From: a virus
Length of the DNA: 41,980 nt
Virus record (IMG/VR): IMGVR_UViG_3300025000_000208
Coordinates: 1-41,980 of that record
Reading direction: 5' to 3' (one strand)
Part shown: piece after piece, positions 128 through 41,980 of the stretch
Position numbering within the stretch: the stretch's first letter is position 1
How the letters are laid out: every line of letters begins with the position of its first letter
Notes under the pieces: generated by a model
Databases searched by the model: none
Told to the model about the DNA's origin: nothing
Seen by the model: only the letters and a program-made list of their open reading frames with translations
Translations under genes and position numbers: made by a program

Positions 128-1510
128 AATATTGATAACTATGGCAATATCGACACTACTTCTATCAAGGTTAAGAAAACTAACATCTCTTATCCTGATT
201 CTATTAACAGATCAATCTTTGATGTTTTTCTGGCTACGACCCGAACAAACTCCGTACAAAAGCTTCCTTGGGTAATTATAAGGTCATATGAACCTCTCTC
301 AGACCTTAAACAACGCAATGAAGACGAGGGCGGGTATATCAACCTCGACAAGATACATAACAGGTCAATATCCGATACTGAAAGTTATGAGAGATCACGC
401 AACCGTCTAATGAATCAAGACGAAAAAGGCGATGAGACAGTTGACGAGGTGGAAAAGTGGGAGTGCTACGAAAAAGTAGGCAATAAAATCTTCGTCACAG
501 TCATTGCCAACGGCAAAGAAATCATCAAGCCTAAACAAATCTTTTCATACTGGCACTGCAAATACCCTCTAGTAGCCTTTAAGATCAAACCTAAAGCATT
601 TTCTATTATCGGTGAAGGAATCTTTGAATCAAACGAACGCTTAGTCTGGGGTATTAACGACATAGACAATCATTTCTTAGATGCTTGGAACCTGGCCAAC
701 AACCCGATGATTATGCAGGAGGAAGGCACAGTAGTCGATACTTACGAGATCGCTCCTGGCAATCAGTTCTTATACAAAGGACAAGTCGAACCAAAGCCCT
801 TTATGTTTCCTCAGCCTTCCGTTCAAGCCTTCCAAGGGGTGCGTGAAGCCTTCTTAGGGTCAGTTGAACAAAACTCCCTTTCTGGTTTTCAAATGGGTAC
901 GCCAATGGACGCAACTGATAATACGGGTGGAACGGCGGCTGGAACTAAAGCCATCCAACAGGCTGGTGACGACCTCTTAGACTTCTTTAGAAAGAACTTC
1001 AGAAAAGGGGTAAGAGAAGTTGGATTGATGTGGATGCAGATGATCCAACAGTTTCTCGATAAAAGTATCTGGGTGCAGATCGTCGGTGAAAATGGCGCTG
1101 AAAATGTCGAAATCACTCCTGAAATGATACAGGGAGAGTTCAACTTAGACATTGAAGAAACCTCAATGCAACCGCAAAACAAAGAGTTTGAACTCAATAA
1201 ATACACGGCTTTCGTGGATAAAATCATCGAAATCGCTGAGAAATCAAAAGAAACTCCTCAACCTGTCTTCCCTGAATATAACCAGTTAATCAAAGACCTA
1301 GCTCAGAAATTCCAATACAAAGACGCTGATAAATATTTAATGAGCCAAGAGCAAGTCCAAGAAATGATGATGGCTCAACAACCTCAAATGCCACAACTCC
1401 CCCCTGAAGAGCAGATGAATATGCCAGAGTTACCGCCAGAGGAGAATATGGAAATGCCACCCCTTCCGCCACAGGAAGAGATGGAATTACCGCCATTACC
1501 ACCACAATAA
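1..1510 (+). CDS. Portal protein, C-terminal part
   Basis: This is the downstream part of the portal gene that starts at 41531. Joined across the circle the protein is 610 residues, a usual portal length. The dodecameric portal forms the head vertex, docks the terminase and carries DNA into and out of the capsid. The assignment rests on the position directly after the terminase genes and before scaffold and capsid, the length, and a portal-like N-terminal half in the other fragment. The last 55 or so residues are low-complexity: Gln/Met-rich, then repeated Met-x-x-Pro-x-Leu-Pro-Pro-Glu-Glu units, ending LPPLPPQ. The first complete codon here is at base 2, and the ATG at 26 is internal, not the start. 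The next gene follows after 8 bases with an AAGGAG box. Confidence 0.85.
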   Translation, partial: DHPEIDPSMFERYAVSLLDAIVTGIGWQSPCWEIKSKEVRERNIDNYGNIDTTSIKVKKTNISYPDSINRSIFDVFLATTRTNSVQKLPWVIIRSYEPLSDLKQRNEDEGGYINLDKIHNRSISDTESYERSRNRLMNQDEKGDETVDEVEKWECYEKVGNKIFVTVIANGKEIIKPKQIFSYWHCKYPLVAFKIKPKAFSIIGEGIFESNERLVWGINDIDNHFLDAWNLANNPMIMQEEGTVVDTYEIAPGNQFLYKGQVEPKPFMFPQPSVQAFQGVREAFLGSVEQNSLSGFQMGTPMDATDNTGGTAAGTKAIQQAGDDLLDFFRKNFRKGVREVGLMWMQMIQQFLDKSIWVQIVGENGAENVEITPEMIQGEFNLDIEETSMQPQNKEFELNKYTAFVDKIIEIAEKSKETPQPVFPEYNQLIKDLAQKFQYKDADKYLMSQEQVQEMMMAQQPQMPQLPPEEQMNMPELPPEENMEMPPLPPQEEMELPPLPPQ

Positions 1511-1518
1511 GGAGAACA

Positions 1519-1821
1519 ATGATTGACAAAGCGAGGGAAGCGCTCAAAAAATATCAAGATATTGAATACACCATTTCAACAACTGGTTATCAGTACATTT
1601 TAGAGCAGATTAATAAAGAACTCCAATCTGCCTTTAGGAACTCCCGAAGTCCTGAATTTGCCAAGGATGTTAAAGACAAACCCGAAACCTACTTTAAGCA
1701 TATCGGTTATTGCGAAGGCTTGGAGTGCATTAAATCAATAATAGACAGGGCAAGGGTAGCTGGTGTCAAAGCGAAGAAAGATATAGAGAAATGGGAATCA
1801 AAGAACAACCAAGCTTTATAA
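1519..1821 (+). CDS. Hypothetical virion-operon protein, 100 aa
   Basis: This short, highly charged and probably all-helical protein of 100 residues is encoded between portal and scaffold. The ATG has a good AAGGAG box ending 4 bases upstream. The C-terminus (VKAKKDIEKWESKN) is basic. I recognise no domain. The position suggests a head-assembly accessory protein, but that is inference. The next ORF overlaps its 3' end by 31 bases. Confidence 0.75.
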   Translation: MIDKAREALKKYQDIEYTISTTGYQYILEQINKELQSAFRNSRSPEFAKDVKDKPETYFKHIGYCEGLECIKSIIDRARVAGVKAKKDIEKWESKNNQAL

Positions 1822-2012
1822 AAGGCGAACCAAACCCGATCTTTGGTGAAATCCACATGGTCAAAGAAGGAGAAATGCCTATACTGCATAACTTCCAACA
1901 CGATCACTTCTTTGAGTGGTCAGAAGGGCGAGATGTTGTTTGTAAGTGTGGCAAGGGCAAGACTTTGGGTGAGGACTTAACCTTAACAGATGGTCAGATA
2001 GTACAGATATAG
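1791..2012 (+). CDS. Hypothetical protein, 73 aa, with CxC motif
   Basis: An ORF of 73 residues overlaps the end of the preceding gene in another frame. It carries one Cys-Lys-Cys-Gly-Lys-Gly motif near the C-terminus, which could be half of a metal site. The ATG at 1791 has a poor ribosome site. An in-frame ATG at 1857, after AATCCAC, is an alternative and would give 51 residues. No family is recognised. It ends 18 bases before a predicted RNA pseudoknot. Confidence 0.55.
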   Translation: MGIKEQPSFIKGEPNPIFGEIHMVKEGEMPILHNFQHDHFFEWSEGRDVVCKCGKGKTLGEDLTLTDGQIVQI

Positions 2013-2030
2013 CCCGGTAATCGTCTGGGC

Positions 2031-2076
2031 GATGAGAATGTGGTTGGTCGCCACTCGTTCTCATCACTTAGGCGAC
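2031..2076 (+). promoter_or_regulatory. Predicted H-type RNA pseudoknot in scaffold leader
   Basis: GATGAGAATG (2031-2040) pairs with CGTTCTCATC (2056-2065), nine Watson-Crick pairs and one G-T. The 15-base loop holds GTCGCC (2047-2052), which is perfectly complementary to GGCGAC at 2071-2076 just outside the hairpin. That is the topology of an H-type pseudoknot. It lies in the 122-base gap before the scaffold gene. A role in translation or mRNA stability is inference. Confidence 0.5.
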
Positions 2077-2134
2077 TACAAATTAACGACCCCTGAGATG
2101 AGGGTGGCACAATATTCATCGGCAGAAAGGTTAT

Positions 2135-2848
2135 ATGGACGAAGCATTAGAACAGGCGGTTAATATGCCCGTTGAAAGCGGGATTGCAGAAGAAACTGCA
2201 CCAGTAGAATCAGCCCCTACTGAAACAAACGCTCAAGTGGAAGTCGAAGGGTCAGAGAAGACGGCAGAAAACACCGAAACTACACAAGAGAAGATGGTGC
2301 CTCTATCAGCACTCCAAAAGGAGAGAGCAGAGAAGAAAAGTCTAAGGGACTATATCAAGTCCTTGCAAACTGCACCAGTTCCACAAGAGGAGTACGCTCC
2401 TCAACAGGGTTACGATCAACCTTACTCGCAAGAGCAAGAGGTTGAATATGTTGACCCAAACCAGTTCCTAACAAGGGACGAGTTTGAACGGATGACGAAA
2501 GAATCACAGTCTTGGGCGGAAGCCGAGAGAGACTTTCCAGAATTAAAAGAACTGCCTCAAATCAAGAAAATGGCAGAGGGACTCAGAAGAGTCTCAGCAC
2601 TGGAAGACTTCAGGTATCTATCCCCTTATGACGCTGTTAAAGAGGCTCTAGCCCCTTACAAGATGGCTCAGGCAAAGGGACAGAGATCGGCTCAAGAATC
2701 AATCGAAATACAAAAACAAGCTCGTGTCGAAGGAAGTGGAATAAGAGTTGACGATAAAGCCGAAAGGTTAAATCAACTCAAAGGAAACTTGTCCAAAAGA
2801 GGTTCTGCCTCTAGGGACGCATTAACAGAAATATTAAAAGAATTCTGA
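2135..2848 (+). CDS. Scaffolding protein
   Basis: A 237-residue acidic, helix-rich protein lies directly before the major capsid gene, the classic position and size of a phage scaffold that templates procapsid assembly and then leaves. The first 50 residues are Glu/Thr/Pro/Ala-rich and disordered. A helical segment with VPLSALQKERAEKK (about residues 55-70), typical of scaffold-like proteins, follows, then a Gln/Tyr-rich stretch and a charged helical C-terminus that probably contacts capsid. The ATG follows AGAAAGG. The identification is by context and composition, not by a catalytic motif. The preceding leader is long for this genome and structured. Confidence 0.8.
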   Translation: MDEALEQAVNMPVESGIAEETAPVESAPTETNAQVEVEGSEKTAENTETTQEKMVPLSALQKERAEKKSLRDYIKSLQTAPVPQEEYAPQQGYDQPYSQEQEVEYVDPNQFLTRDEFERMTKESQSWAEAERDFPELKELPQIKKMAEGLRRVSALEDFRYLSPYDAVKEALAPYKMAQAKGQRSAQESIEIQKQARVEGSGIRVDDKAERLNQLKGNLSKRGSASRDALTEILKEF

Positions 2849-2851
2849 TAT

Positions 2852-2890
2852 GACACGATAAGTGTCCGGCGACTATTGGAGTAAGGACAC
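2852..2890 (+). promoter_or_regulatory. Two competing hairpins before capsid gene
   Basis: GACAC (2852-2856) can pair with GTGTC (2862-2866) around the loop GATAA. Alternatively GTGTCC (2862-2867) can pair with GGACAC (2885-2890), which overlaps the TAAGGA ribosome site of the capsid gene. The two structures exclude each other because both use GTGTC. This could tune capsid translation. The short stems make it speculative. Confidence 0.3.
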
Positions 2891-2893
2891 AAA

Positions 2894-3823
2894 ATGAGTT
2901 ACTCACCAGTAAATTCTTATGATGAACGACAAGGTGTCGGTTCAATCAAAGAGGATTTGTGGGATCTTATCTCGAATGTTGAATCAACTGAATTTCAGTT
3001 GCAAAGCGGGCTAGGAAACATCGATGTATATTCCACACGACATGAGTGGTTAGTTGATACTTTAGCTGCTGGCAACACCAATGTTGCACGAGCTGAAGGC
3101 TTCACACCTGACTATGCTGATGTCACAAACACAACTAGAATTGCCAACTATCTTCAGACTATTGACGCTTCCGTCAAAGTTACCGACAGAATGAAAGCTG
3201 TCAGAACTGCTGGTCAATTCTCAGATGATATGGCTCGCCAAAAAGCAAACGCAATCAAAGTTTTAAAGAACAGGATTGAATACGCTTTAATGGCTGGCAC
3301 TATCGCAACTGGTTCTTCAACCGTTGCTTCAGGTATGGCTGGTATTAAAGATGTTACCACTTGGGGTGTTTCAGGGTATGAAATGCTTACCACGAACACT
3401 TCCGGCACATCTTTGTCTGAGACTATGTTCAACGACTACCTAGCTAATAACTGGGATGGTACGGCTGAAGTTCCACAAGAAGCTTTCATGGGTGCTGCTA
3501 TCAAACGAAGAATATCTGGCTTCACTGCTGGTTCTACAAAGAACACTGACAATGAAGACAAGAGATTGGTAAATGCTGTCGATGTTTACGAAAGTGACTT
3601 CGGTATCATCAAGCTTTTCTTACACAGATATGCAAACGCTGGCGCTACAAACAATGACCTTGTTCTTGTAAACCCAGACTTTGCTAAGATCGGCTTCCTG
3701 CGAAGACCTGAATATGTTGAAACCGCTAAAACGGGCGATGCTACTCAGGGCTACTACGTTGCTGACCTTACCCTACAAGTAAGCAATCCAAAGACTCACC
3801 AGGTTGTCAAAAACATACTGTAA
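2894..3823 (+). CDS. Major capsid protein, DUF5309/SU10-like
   Basis: A 309-residue HK97-fold-type major capsid protein with the hallmarks of the DUF5309 (SU10-like) family: an N-terminal arm followed by a segment of the TRIANYLQTID type, then a long spine helix containing DDMARQKANAIKVLKNRIEYALM (about residues 110-135). It lies directly after the scaffold gene. It lacks the long cleaved N-terminal domain of HK97 itself, consistent with having a separate scaffold. The ATG follows TAAGGACACAAA. A 7-bp UUCG-capped hairpin follows the stop, so transcripts may be partly terminated there or stabilised, which would favour high capsid expression. Confidence 0.85.
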   Translation: MSYSPVNSYDERQGVGSIKEDLWDLISNVESTEFQLQSGLGNIDVYSTRHEWLVDTLAAGNTNVARAEGFTPDYADVTNTTRIANYLQTIDASVKVTDRMKAVRTAGQFSDDMARQKANAIKVLKNRIEYALMAGTIATGSSTVASGMAGIKDVTTWGVSGYEMLTTNTSGTSLSETMFNDYLANNWDGTAEVPQEAFMGAAIKRRISGFTAGSTKNTDNEDKRLVNAVDVYESDFGIIKLFLHRYANAGATNNDLVLVNPDFAKIGFLRRPEYVETAKTGDATQGYYVADLTLQVSNPKTHQVVKNIL

Positions 3824-7793: not shown

Positions 7794-8517
7794 TGTAACC
7801 CCCTGTTATAGGGAAGAAAAGTGGATAGGTGCTTATTTAGACGGACTTGATGTTGACAGAAAGTTTGTCGTTATCTCTGAAAAGCCTTTTTTTGGTGAAA
7901 CTCTACCAATGGACAGAACGGAAGAAATAGCTCTTGAAAAAGGTGCAGAGGTGATAAAAGGAACATGGCCGGAAGACTCACACATGAGAAATTTAGTGAT
8001 TGAGCTCTGCCAAGATTGCGACTGGATTATCACAATGGACGCTGACGAACACATGACCAAAGAGGACTTTGCTAAATTCAAAGATTTCTTAAATAAAACC
8101 GATAAACCAGCAGTGGCAATGACCACTATGAATACATACTTTAAATCTTTTGATTACCGAGTTAACCCTAGAGAAAAGTTTAATCCGATTGTCGCAGTAA
8201 GACCAAGCACGAGGTTTTCCTATGTCAGGGGGGTAAATTCAGAGTTTTCCATGACTCCAGATGATATGGTTTTACACCATTTCTCTTACGCTAAATCAGA
8301 TAAGGATATGTATAAAAAAGTCACAACCTTTTCCCATGCGGGGGAGTTTGATGGCAAGAAGTGGTATGAGGAGGTTTGGAAGACTTGGACACCAGAAGCT
8401 ATTAATCTGCATCCAACTCACCCTAATCAATATGAAGGAGTAATTTTTGACCCTGCGCCGAAAGAAATAAAGAAGAGATTTAATTTACATAATGGAATAC
8501 CAAAAGGAGGAGAGTGA
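7783..8517 (+). CDS. Glycosyltransferase family 2-like protein
   Basis: A 244-residue GT-A-type protein. It opens with IASVTPCYREEKWIGAYLDG, the usual first strand and nucleotide loop, and has a metal-binding MDADEH motif near residue 88 (DxD). The C-terminal third contains histidines (LHHFSYAK) at the place where many GT2 enzymes bind the second metal face. It overlaps the preceding gene by 11 bases and the next by 4, so it is translationally coupled within the sugar cassette. The acceptor is unknown. Confidence 0.8.
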   Translation: MIASVTPCYREEKWIGAYLDGLDVDRKFVVISEKPFFGETLPMDRTEEIALEKGAEVIKGTWPEDSHMRNLVIELCQDCDWIITMDADEHMTKEDFAKFKDFLNKTDKPAVAMTTMNTYFKSFDYRVNPREKFNPIVAVRPSTRFSYVRGVNSEFSMTPDDMVLHHFSYAKSDKDMYKKVTTFSHAGEFDGKKWYEEVWKTWTPEAINLHPTHPNQYEGVIFDPAPKEIKKRFNLHNGIPKGGE

Positions 8518-9447: not shown

Positions 9448-10575
9448 ATGATAAAATTTGCAGGTATCAAACAGGGACTAAAAGAGATTATTGCCGTCAA
9501 CAAGGTGCTACTAAGCCCTCAACACGCTTCTGATAAAGAGTGCGATAAGTTGGAGAGAGAGTTTGCTAATTTTATAGGAACTAAATATGCTCTGACTTTA
9601 AATTCTGGTTCAAGTGCTAATTTGTTAGCTTTGAAAGTTTTAAACCTTCCCAAAGGGTCTAAGGTTATAACCTCTGGCTGTGGCTTTCCTGCCACTCTCT
9701 CACCTATTCTTCACTTGGGGTATGAGCCTATTTTAGTTGACTACGATATTCACACCCAAAACATTGACCTAGACCAAGTAGAAAAAGAAGCACCTAATGC
9801 CAAAGCTATTCTGTTTGCTCACACAATGGGCAATCCAGTCGATATGGACAGATTAATGAGTATCGCCAAAAAGTATAAATTAAAAGTAATTGAAGACTGT
9901 TGCGAGGCTGTTGGGAGTAAATTTGGCGGTAAATATGTTGGAACTTTCGGAGATATATCTACTTTTTCTTTTTACCCAACTCATCAAATTAATGGACTTG
10001 GAGGCGGAGGGTGCTTAGTTACTAATAACGAAAAATACGCCATAGAAGCAAGATCGCTAAGGAATTGGGGCAAGGTTGCTAAAACTCCTTATTTCTCAAA
10101 ACCGCCAAAGGACTATACGGAGAACATAGACGGAGTTAAGTACCACGAACAATATACCTATCAAACAGTAGGCTTTAATATGCTGATGAGCGATGTTCAA
10201 GCTGCCTATTTAAGAGTTCAATTAAAGCGTCTGCCAAAGTTTATCAAGATCAGAGAACGCAACTGGAATATGTTTAAAAAAGCTCTAGGTGCTGACATGA
10301 TAGTTCACGAGAAAGCCGAACCAGCATATTTTGGCTTTACCTATATCGCCAAAGACAGAAACAAACTCATTCAGAAGCTAGAAGATAACGGTATTAAAAC
10401 CAGACCTTTCTTTGCTGGTAATATCACGAGACATAAACCTTTCGAGCAATTTAAAAGAAAGTTTAAGTCTGCCGACTATCTAATGGAACATGGGCTTTTT
10501 TGGGGAGTATGGCAGGGAATGACCAGAAGAGATGTCAAAATCATAATAAAAGTAATTAAAGGTTACAATGCTTGA
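9448..10575 (+). CDS. DegT-family enzyme, ColD/E1-like 3-dehydratase
   Basis: A 375-residue fold-type I PLP enzyme of the DegT/DnrJ/EryC1 family: SGSSAN (53-58), VIEDCCEAVGS (148-158) and STFSFYPTHQINGLGGGG (171-188). In the sugar aminotransferases the last motif carries the Schiff-base lysine. Here that position is His179 in FYPTHQI, as in E1/RfbH and ColD, which use a non-covalently held cofactor to remove the 3-hydroxyl of an NDP-4-keto-6-deoxyhexose. I see no four-cysteine iron-sulphur pattern of E1, so ColD is the closer model. The product would be a 3,6-dideoxy sugar for the adjacent transferases. The gene starts 2 bases after the SDR stop region. Confidence 0.8.
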   Translation: MIKFAGIKQGLKEIIAVNKVLLSPQHASDKECDKLEREFANFIGTKYALTLNSGSSANLLALKVLNLPKGSKVITSGCGFPATLSPILHLGYEPILVDYDIHTQNIDLDQVEKEAPNAKAILFAHTMGNPVDMDRLMSIAKKYKLKVIEDCCEAVGSKFGGKYVGTFGDISTFSFYPTHQINGLGGGGCLVTNNEKYAIEARSLRNWGKVAKTPYFSKPPKDYTENIDGVKYHEQYTYQTVGFNMLMSDVQAAYLRVQLKRLPKFIKIRERNWNMFKKALGADMIVHEKAEPAYFGFTYIAKDRNKLIQKLEDNGIKTRPFFAGNITRHKPFEQFKRKFKSADYLMEHGLFWGVWQGMTRRDVKIIIKVIKGYNA

Positions 10576-11269
10576 TATCTGTATTGTCAGTGGCATGCAC
10601 GCTGATTATAAAAAATACTTTGATAAATGCGTGGAAATGGTCGAAAAAAACACGACTTCCCCATATAAGCTATATACCTTAGTCACCAATACAGGGAGTT
10701 TTGCACAAAACTATAACAAGCTCATCAAACAGGGCAAAGGGGAATATGTGGTCTTATTATCTGATGATGTTTTGGTTTTTAAAAACTGGGACAAAGCCTT
10801 ACTGAAAGCCACTGATGATAAAACAGGCGTAACTGGACTTTGTTCTAACTGTGACTATGGTGATTATCACGGATATGTTTATCCTTTCCAATACAACGGA
10901 ACTCGCAATATTGAAGACTTGAATATTGAGGAAGTCTCCGAATGGGCTGAATCATTGTGGGGGAACGGTTACAAAGAAATTGATGTCGGCTTTCCACCAT
11001 TTAACAAGCCTAAGTTAAAGTTCTACATGGTGATGATACCACGAAAAGTAATAGAATCAGTTGGACTTCTGAACGAGAGTTATAAGAATTGTTTTGAAGA
11101 CGATGACTATTCTAACAGGGTCAAGGAAGCAGGACTAAAACTAATGTATTCGCTAGACTCCTATTGCTGGCACTTTATTGAAACTTCTATTAGGCACAAC
11201 CAGGAAGAACACAATAAGAACTTTGAAGAAAGCAAGAAACTTTACTTTTCTATTGACAAACATAATTAA
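10568..11269 (+). CDS. Glycosyltransferase family 2-like protein
   Basis: A 233-residue GT-A protein with ICIVSGMHADYKKYFDKC at the N-terminus and the metal-binding SDDVLV motif after GEYVVLL. FEDDDYSNRVKEAG about two thirds along is the usual catalytic-base and acceptor loop of GT2 enzymes (ED(D/E)xxxxxR). It is the last gene of the sugar cassette and overlaps the preceding one by 8 bases. A strong promoter for the next block begins inside its last codons. Confidence 0.8.
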   Translation: MLDICIVSGMHADYKKYFDKCVEMVEKNTTSPYKLYTLVTNTGSFAQNYNKLIKQGKGEYVVLLSDDVLVFKNWDKALLKATDDKTGVTGLCSNCDYGDYHGYVYPFQYNGTRNIEDLNIEEVSEWAESLWGNGYKEIDVGFPPFNKPKLKFYMVMIPRKVIESVGLLNESYKNCFEDDDYSNRVKEAGLKLMYSLDSYCWHFIETSIRHNQEEHNKNFEESKKLYFSIDKHN

Positions 11270-38229: not shown

Positions 38230-38447
38230 ATAGAACTGCAGAAAATATATTGATCACATTATTACTTTCTTTTTTGCAGCTGCAGTTCTTGTTGGTTTGC
38301 TTTCTAGCTGCCAGGTTTCCAGAATTTAGCAATTTTATGAGCAACCGATGGGCGGGAGCAATATATGCCTTTGTTTCAGTAATAATGTGGATAATGTCCT
38401 TGTTAGCGATTGGTGTATATTCAGTTGAAACTACCAATACACATTAA
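38226..38447 (+). CDS. Two-pass membrane protein, holin-like
   Basis: A 73-residue protein with two transmembrane helices (about 8-28 ILITLLLSFLQLQFLLVCFLA and 42-66 WAGAIYAFVSVIMWIMSLLA) joined by a short charged loop, and a polar end. Size and topology are those of class II holins, though the endolysin genes are elsewhere. It is the last gene before the RNA gene at 38458. Confidence 0.6.
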   Translation: MNRTAENILITLLLSFLQLQFLLVCFLAARFPEFSNFMSNRWAGAIYAFVSVIMWIMSLLAIGVYSVETTNTH

Positions 38448-38457
38448 CAATCTGCTC

Positions 38458-38634
38458 GGTGGAGTGGCGGAATAGGTAAACGCAATGGGTTTATGAGCAA
38501 CCACGCATACCCAAAGCCAGTGGTAATTAAGACAATGCAAGGTGACTATACGAGTAAAATGCTAGCATAGCTAGACGACATAATGCTTGTCGGGCGTTCA
38601 GCAACACGCACTCGTCAAATCCTTGCCTCCACCG
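38458..38634 (+). tRNA. tRNA-Leu-like gene interrupted in the T-loop
   Basis: GGTGGAG (38458-38464) pairs with CTCCACC (38627-38633). The D-arm GCGGAATAGGTAAACGC (38467-38483) is nearly that of a bacterial tRNA-Leu. GCAAGGT (38537-38543) and TCAAATCCTTGC (38615-38626) would join into a textbook T-arm with T54 and T55, but 71 bases (38544-38614) separate them. The anticodon region is also abnormal: TGGG and CCCA flank about 20 bases instead of 7, beginning TTTA, so a Leu UAA anticodon is possible only after removal of further bases. The 71-base insert can fold as a four-way junction. No CCA is encoded. An intron-bearing, decoy or decayed tRNA are all possible. Confidence 0.5.
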
Positions 38635-38681
38635 AATAGGTTATTAACAAATTAAACTCCCTGAAATAGCAGAAAAACAGG

Positions 38682-38856
38682 TTGTCGATCAGTCTCCATC
38701 TGAGAAGCGTAAAACGAGGGCTTTGGCTCTCTATGGGGGTTCTAGTCAGATTTGCTAAACGGTGGGTTCACCCATTTAACGCTCAAAAACGAGGTGGTCG
38801 TCAGACCAAACTGCTAAACTCGGCTGGCTGGGACAGACTTGAACAAAGGACAAATA
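38682..38856 (+). ncRNA. Structured, probably non-coding region
   Basis: The 222 bases between the tRNA-like gene and the next gene are less AT-rich than the neighbours and full of hairpins: AGCGT (38706) with ACGCT (38779); GAGGGC with GCTCTC (38716-38731); TGGG-TTCA-CCCA (38763-38774); TGGTC-GTCA-GACCA (38795-38808). AAAACGAGG recurs at 38711 and 38786, and GCTAAAC at 38754 and 38813. An open frame exists but encodes an Arg-rich string without a start box. A structured RNA is more likely. Confidence 0.4.
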
Positions 38857-39030
38857 ATGGGCATAGAAGAACTAACAGAATACGGCAGAGGTCACCATGA
38901 CGGCGTTTGGGCATCCTTAGAGGAAGGTCTAAGTAACATAAAACGCCAACGCCAAAGGATAAGAGACAAGATTATCAAATGTAACTACAACAAAGATGAG
39001 ATTGATAAGCTAATAGAGTTTCTAAAATGA
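38857..39030 (+). CDS. Hypothetical protein, 57 aa
   Basis: A 57-residue protein, acidic at the start (MGIEELTEYGRGHHDG) then basic and helical (NIKRQRQRIRDKIIKCNYNK). AAAGGACAAATA precedes the ATG at 38857, which is better than the in-frame codon at 38839. It overlaps the next gene by ATGA. No family is recognised. Confidence 0.6.
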   Translation: MGIEELTEYGRGHHDGVWASLEEGLSNIKRQRQRIRDKIIKCNYNKDEIDKLIEFLK

Positions 39031-41530: not shown

Positions 41531-41980
41531 ATGGCTAAAGGTCGCACTAAAGACGAACAAGAAAAGGTCTCAGTTACTAACTGGAAAAGACGCTATCAGA
41601 TAGCCCTCGACAACCAACGCCCCTGGTTTAAGAAAGCGGCTGAATGGTATGACCTTTTATACGCCAACATCAAGGACGATGACTTCGCTTGGCACTCAAG
41701 GATATTCGAACCACTCCTTTCAAGCAAGACTTGGAATATAATCGCCAAAACCATATCCGGTCAACCTGGCTGGATGTGCAACGTGATCGGTGAAAAGACC
41801 GACGACCTCTCAGACAGAGCGATGGCGATGGAGGAGGCTTTAAAATACTTCCACGATCACCCTGAAATAGACCCTTCAATGTTTGAGCGATATGCCGTTT
41901 CCCTTTTAGACGCAATTGTTACAGGTATAGGATGGCAGTCCCCTTGTTGGGAGATTAAATCAAAAGAAGTTAGAGAGAGA
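41531..41980 (+). CDS. Portal protein, N-terminal part
   Basis: The true start of the portal gene. It reads MAKGRTKDEQEKVS, then helical RRYQIALDNQRPWFKKAAEW and a FEPLLSSKTWNIIAKTISGQ segment typical of the portal region that leads into the wing domain. The frame is open to the end of the window and continues without break at base 2 of the left end, giving 610 residues. The ribosome site is weak (AGGATATCT). The gene begins 41 bases after the promoter -10 element. Confidence 0.85.
   Translation, partial: MAKGRTKDEQEKVSVTNWKRRYQIALDNQRPWFKKAAEWYDLLYANIKDDDFAWHSRIFEPLLSSKTWNIIAKTISGQPGWMCNVIGEKTDDLSDRAMAMEEALKYFHDHPEIDPSMFERYAVSLLDAIVTGIGWQSPCWEIKSKEVRER
41854..41980. repeat. Terminal direct repeat, right copy
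   Basis: Identical to bases 1-127. One copy should be removed to give the 41,853-bp circle. It lies within the portal gene. Confidence 0.95.

Follow-up and report, generated by a model that had tools for sequence, protein, structure and literature searches.

The stretch of DNA analysed here, referred to as the window, is the whole of virus record IMGVR_UViG_3300025000_000208 (41,980 bases). It encodes a phage portal, a major head protein, terminase, integrase and NinG, and it begins and ends with an identical 127-nt direct terminal repeat (1-127 and 41854-41980), so that the record probably represents an entire genome, assembled as a circle. The RNA locus described below sits within a 409-nt intergenic stretch (38448-38856) flanked by a small membrane-protein-like ORF and, on the other side, by a small ORF that precedes the large terminase gene; the latter gene lies 0.8 kb past the RNA. 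The intergenic DNA continues for another 217 nt downstream of the RNA (38640-38856), with several short hairpins; tested against shuffles, the fold of 38640-38860 was no better than theirs.

All parts of the RNA lie on the plus strand. Its closing ('acceptor') stem of 8 bp pairs CGGTGGAG (38457-38464), where covariation was found at all eight positions, with CTCCACCG (38627-38634), the latter placed by alignment and pair counts, and in the fold of a longer stretch this stem runs outward into an irregular extension (38444-38456 with 38635-38647). Inside the stem follow U8-G9 and a D-arm of the tRNA-Leu type with a 3-bp D-stem (TGGCGGAATAGGTAAACGC, 38465-38483; alignment and pair counts) and then a hypervariable central domain (38484-38536) that replaces the anticodon and variable arms and whose AT end precedes the T-stem. 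The T-stem has 6 bp (GCAAGG, 38537-38542, with CCTTGC, 38621-38626); according to pair counts it is 100% paired, with two-sided changes in three pairs. Above it, U54 and the 5' side of a conserved internal loop, TGACTAT (38543-38549; alignment), lead into a distal stem that opens the T-loop insert. This stem, helix 4 of our alignment, joins ACGAGT (38550-38555) to ACTCGT (38610-38615, with U55 as its last residue; alignment and pair counts) and shows compensatory change in four of five pairs. It encloses a hypervariable distal module (38556-38609), for which folding predicts hairpins at 38562-38574, 38576-38592 and 38594-38609. The 3' side of the T-loop, CAAAT (C56-U60, 38616-38620), is invariant in the alignment. 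Two tertiary contacts are possible: an H-type pseudoknot in the central domain (TGGGT 38486-38490 with ACCCA 38509-38513, and ACCAC 38500-38504 with GTGGT 38520-38524) and, by eye only, a loop-loop contact between TGCT 38584-38587 and AGCA 38600-38603. A preliminary description of the locus, which had interpreted it as a tRNA-Leu-like gene split in the T-loop, placed the sequence features that it named correctly, and the fold that it gave for the insert, with ACGAGT/ACTCGT closing the hairpins CTAGC-ATA-GCTAG, CGACA-7-TGTCG and GCGT-8-ACGC, is the one that we obtained.

Relatives of the window RNA numbered about 80 in IMG/VR contigs and 7 in MAG contigs. A first pattern, consisting of a tRNA-Leu D-arm and then a T-arm at an unusually long distance, recovered ordinary tRNA arrays plus RNAs sharing the opened T-loop. 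The shared sequence GGTGACTATACGAG...CTCGTCAAATCC, with no D-arm required, was found in 53 viral stretches and in the 7 MAG contigs, whose labels were Pseudolabrys, Melioribacter, Brocadia, Cytophagales, Pirellulales and two uncultured bacteria; when the distal stem was left out of the pattern, 60 viral stretches were returned. The closing stem was kept at 77 distinct places, where it took 71 different 8-nt sequences. Because the collections were scanned by exact patterns, these counts are minimum figures for the family, and the search itself partly dictated its most conserved parts. Sampled cellular genomes (385 + 392, under stricter filters) added one match beyond those already known, and in the sample examined the family is restricted to viruses. 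Two composite T-arm probes matched none of 50,697 phage records, neither the window nor one family locus had a match among known phages, and the plasmids searched gave none. Sister phages sought through the terminase or the head protein were distant relatives only and lacked the RNA, among them the related phage G832, whose head protein is 38% identical. In one phage contig (L191), two identical family RNAs (637-853 and 3386-3602) lie 2.7 kb apart, apparently through segmental duplication.

Neither ARAGORN nor Rfam reported a tRNA in the window. Rfam gave no match at E<=10 in the window region or at E<=5 in 11 member loci, and no family of Rfam 15 rose above its gathering threshold, members L006, L012, L027 and L117 included. 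A search of the open-access literature, subscription papers lying outside it, found no description of such an RNA. The tRNA-like phage RNA is a previously uncatalogued family for which no Rfam entry was found. Our covariance model, whose E-values are rough, scored family members at about 65-118 bits and ordinary tRNA-Leu genes at about 25-45 bits.

The window RNA folded with a minimum free energy of -54.7 kcal/mol (z -2.3); upon addition of 17-18 nt per side the value was -62.3 kcal/mol (z -3.46), and 0 of 200 shuffles did as well. We then relied on alignment A3, which comprises 49 family sequences. The decay of pairing in relatives that the preliminary description had named as counter-evidence was looked for there, and pairing was found to have held: 98.1% of stem cells were paired, compared with 76.5% for shuffles and no more than 45% for slid partners, and two-sided compensatory cells numbered 243, against 63 in shuffles. 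Compensatory changes affected all 8 pairs of the closing stem, the D-stem had 3 bp, and the 6 bp of the T-stem were paired throughout. In the distal stem, which follows the pattern AC-NNN/NNN-GU, GAG/CUC is swapped for UAG/CUA, AGG/CCU or UCG/CGA in other members. The internal loop UGACUAU/CAAAU between the T-stem and the distal stem is near-invariant and constitutes the signature of the opened T-loop; its 5' columns are invariant except C90 and A92, both conserved to at least 90%. A pairing of TGAC with GTCA across the T-loop was also considered and was rejected, as it is broken in L121 and L006, where the ACNNN/NNNGT stem stays.

Similar results were obtained for hits that had not been selected for pairing. 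All 28 of the 60 pattern hits that had a recognisable D-arm paired at 7 or 8 of the 8 closing positions, whereas their 5' strands set against the 3' strands of other loci paired at a mean of 4.0 of 8. Outward of the closing stem, 38 of 76 members showed pairing above the 95% level set by mismatched-flank controls; the window's own extension is short, with 11 pairs, and lies under that level. The crossing pseudoknot in the window's central domain was equalled by 0 of 60 shuffles, and a joint test reached p<=0.05 in 19 of 62 members, so that we claim a central pseudoknot for a subset only. A uniform central H-type pseudoknot was rejected, as the unconstrained test did not distinguish it from nested folds and the conditional second-stem test gave a mean p of 0.45.

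What the members share is the frame of a tRNA, including nearly all of the tertiary positions that are conserved in its corner. In tRNA numbering, U8, A14, A15, G19, U48, U54, U55, C56 and A58 are invariant or nearly so, and the elbow pairs U8-A14, A15-U48, G19-C56 and U54-A58 are invariant or conserved to at least 90% (U48 in 62 of 64). The RNA resembles the type II tRNA-Leu in these nucleotides, in its D-arm (GGCGGAAT.GGTAGACGC) and T-arm and, in a subset of members, in a stem that ends exactly 2 nt ahead of the T-stem, as a type II variable arm does. It differs from tRNA-Leu in its opened T-loop, extended closing stem and hypervariable core, and in having neither an anticodon arm nor a CCA end. 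The central domain, 29-190 nt long, cannot be aligned and has only its last nucleotides, (C)AU, in common. No more than 1 of 64 members had a candidate anticodon arm (5-bp stem, 7-nt loop, U33), and the arm in question resembles a T-arm; the expanded anticodon loop noted earlier is therefore no anticodon loop at all. The earlier term tRNA-perfect is wrong as well: the closing stem, having 8 bp (the eighth pair in 66 of 77) and running outward, is not a bare 7-bp acceptor, and together with the 6-bp T-stem it makes a stack of 14 bp instead of the 12 of a tRNA. ARAGORN and the Rfam tRNA model fail to recognise the RNA as a canonical tRNA.

A tRNA mimic directed at the ribosome or at a synthetase, affecting translation by, for example, occupying a tRNA site or LeuRS, would suit a D-arm and core of the tRNA-Leu type, and certain sister RNAs, labelled 'B1', keep a canonical T-arm and a 3' A-C. 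We nevertheless regard such a role as quite unlikely, for a 14-bp stack with an extended stem stands where a 12-bp stack with a free CCA end would be needed, the nucleotide following the closing stem is not set to A (T 32, C 21, A 21, G 3), and the elbow bears a bulky insert. The 'B1' RNAs (L008, L014, L024, L032, L039, L044, L048, L111, L115 and others) have a canonical tRNA-Leu frame, often AGTCAGG...CCTGACT + AC, with a 5-bp T-stem and a plain T-loop. Their cores of about 110 nt, of 18 unrelated kinds, replace the anticodon arm, and some of these RNAs lie within large phage tRNA arrays. Five others (L010, L011, L013, L031 and L107) combine the 6-bp T-stem of the main family with an unbroken TTCRAAT loop and are a possible insert-free sister group.

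The T-loop had been described as broken at one exact bond, T54-T55, and this position proved exact in all aligned members. Those with the insert also have co-adapted changes, the 6-bp T-stem and A57. The inserts share no core beyond the entry loop. Measured between the closing pairs, their length varies between a few nt and about 70 nt, with versions of 2-25 nt in some members (a few nt or about 25 nt in L088, L195, L196 and L052), and other members have TGCAAAT, TGACAGAAATTCAAAT or a minimal hairpin. In phage record G022 (locus L199), two RNAs (902-1065, minus strand, and 8072-8170, plus strand) are identical over 74 nt, a run that begins in the closing stem, crosses the D-arm and core and reaches into the T-stem; one carries the insert on a 6-bp T-stem, the other a plain TTCGAAT on a 5-bp stem. 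T-loop modules 74-93% identical were found atop unrelated cores (L078/L181/L184/L191 and L027/L151/L170); the same comparison found no core with a different insert. The L078-type module forms a pseudoknot with compensatory changes in both stems. The L199 pair, the short inserts and the modules on unrelated cores thus argue against a conserved intron and describe a modular RNA. Judged from sequence comparison, the T-loop domain is an optional plug-in, and its reading as an intron is not supported.

Group I introns in tRNA genes occupy an anticodon-loop site and possess a large catalytic core. The phage insert is like them in interrupting a tRNA-like gene, in beginning after U and in ending in G, but it lies in the T-loop, is small (about 71 nt), is not conserved and is optional. 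An Rfam search of the window for a group I catalytic core returned no intron match, and the insert appears both optional and graded in length. A tRNA gene split by some new small intron, self-splicing or enzyme-spliced, as was first proposed, would accommodate the exact T54/T55 position and the existence of relatives without the insert. However, even with the insert removed the product would be no tRNA, as the anticodon arm is absent, and inserts of a few or about 25 nt, the lack of a common catalytic core, the unrelated central domains and the co-adapted 6-bp T-stem and A57 make this explanation highly improbable.

Exchange also affects the central domain. The phages carrying L123 and L126 are about 95% identical on either side of the RNA; their identity ends 25 nt inside its 5' end and restarts 24 nt before its 3' end. 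The same core swap distinguishes L028 from L146, whereas L160 and L168 represent the opposite case, slow drift with pairing kept. Records G013, G014 and G015 each have two RNA loci, and none of the six cores is related to another. This turnover of cores could stem from recombination within the conserved blocks of the D- and T-arms, with no selection for new binding involved.

No recurrent protein family adjoined the RNA; terminase, integrase and HNH genes did so only two or three times each, and a protein-partner operon was ruled out by the lack of conserved context. The two nearest ORFs ran on the strand of the RNA in 99 cases and on the opposite strand in 19. A tRNA gene lay within 300 nt at 6 of 75 loci, against 2% of random positions. 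The position of the window RNA, 0.8 kb before the large terminase gene, could point to a packaging RNA or to the remnant of an attachment site near terminase or integrase. This we find hardly credible, with either gene adjacent at only a few of about 70 loci and with 71 different covarying closing stems being incompatible with a tRNA att core. When neighbours were checked for known anti-defence genes, mostly phage methyltransferases matched, with no enrichment shown. In L193, positions 1517-3219, next to an RNA locus, contain a TIR-domain gene and a gene with weak similarity to ArdA; this 58-kb record also has a replication-relaxation gene.

Several known RNAs combine comparable elements. tmRNA unites a tRNA-like part and pseudoknots within one RNA, as the phage RNA appears to do, but the latter has a full D-arm and no tag reading frame region, and it received no tmRNA call from Rfam or ARAGORN. 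In engineered tRNA-scaffold RNAs, a foreign RNA replaces the anticodon arm of a tRNA frame; the phage RNA is natural and has a second insertion site in the T-loop. It might be a natural tRNA scaffold, its elbow frame protecting RNA cargo (antisense, guide or aptamer) and displaying it at two sites. Two independent plug-in sites, modular exchange, an optional T-loop cargo and a frame conserved while the cargo varies would agree with such a function. Even so, it seems unlikely to us, because the window RNA was antisense to its own phage genome over 10 nt at most, as against 10-14 nt for random 178-nt stretches, and because the modules appear structured, with pseudoknots, unlike single-stranded guides.

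Viral tRNA mimicry, often by pseudoknots, is represented by the tRNA-like structures of plant viruses (PMC4810234). These form the 3' end of RNA genomes, whereas the phage RNA is internal, is encoded by DNA phages, and combines a conserved D/T elbow with the lack of an acceptor end. Bacterial YrlA RNAs are said to mimic tRNA in a passage of PMC7790460 that cites Chen et al. 2014. These Y RNAs, partners of Ro60, bear a tRNA-like domain on a longer stem. A comparable layout, significant for the stem in 38 of 76 phage members, would suit a tether whose long stem and tRNA-like head recruit PNPase or another nuclease, or the Ro60 protein (Rsr) of the host, in the manner proposed for YrlA. Such a tether is improbable, however. 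A TROVE/Ro60 gene was detected in 0 of 51 carrier phage records, while a control genome gave a match; the Rfam searches of the window and member loci were negative; a significant stem extension is missing from half of the members; and the split T-loop and exchangeable modules set the phage RNA apart from YrlA. For tRNA, tmRNA, Y RNA and intron alike, defining features were tested for and found lacking, so we assign the RNA to none of these classes.

Comparison of the members establishes a phage RNA family, evidently descended from tRNA-Leu, that conserves the elbow frame, lacks a decoding arm and carries two hypervariable modules independent of each other. A tRNA-derived regulatory RNA or decoy, which the preliminary description had listed among its options, is the class that fits best, as the D-arm, elbow core and T-arm are kept and the anticodon arm is lost. 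With the codon-reading part lost and two swappable inserts gained, the RNA is probably a tRNA look-alike acting on the host and not an intron-bearing tRNA. Our favoured model, which we put forward tentatively and on sequence data, is a stand-alone, trans-acting tRNA mimic in which an elbow scaffold presents exchangeable modules that bind host factors. The locus would encode an RNA derived from a tRNA-Leu gene and neither spliced nor decoding. It would fold into an L-shaped mimic with the corner as a rigid scaffold, and its fast-changing modules, by binding RNA or protein(s) of the host, may serve as decoy, sponge or inhibitor in counter-defence or host takeover. Module turnover might then mirror changing hosts or targets, that is, selection for diversity. 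It is possible, if rather doubtful, that the constant elbow chassis with its two sockets and swapped modules amounts to phage-specific binding of host factors, most plausibly in an arms race. We prefer a decoy or inhibitor role because the changing part would carry the specificity and otherwise similar phages differ there. Several points weigh against the model. The long stem and the T-loop hairpin should hinder RNase P, EF-Tu or LeuRS, so that the RNA does not readily suggest a mere decoy for proteins that bind the elbow; no enrichment beside anti-defence genes was shown; core turnover has the alternative explanation by recombination; and the related phage G832 lacks the RNA.

The family illustrates that the T-loop of a tRNA can open at one exact bond while the entry loop stays evolutionarily constrained, and that phages which are nearly identical can differ in the RNA modules mounted on a tRNA chassis. 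It is conserved, structured and phage-enriched, and it supplies specific sequences open to testing. Should its modules prove to bind host factors, the family would parallel, at the RNA level, the counter-defence that proteins provide, and would represent tRNA-scaffold technology in natural form.

Two further observations concern contigs carrying RNAs of these kinds. Phage contigs with tRNA-frame RNAs also gave matches to Pistol ribozymes, HEARO RNA and tmRNA (L013 739-804, L030 649-709, L016 848-1055 and 5417-5716). In a MAG contig labelled Candidatus Brocadia, two family RNAs stand in tandem (G054:C224:10127-10333 and 10513-10678).
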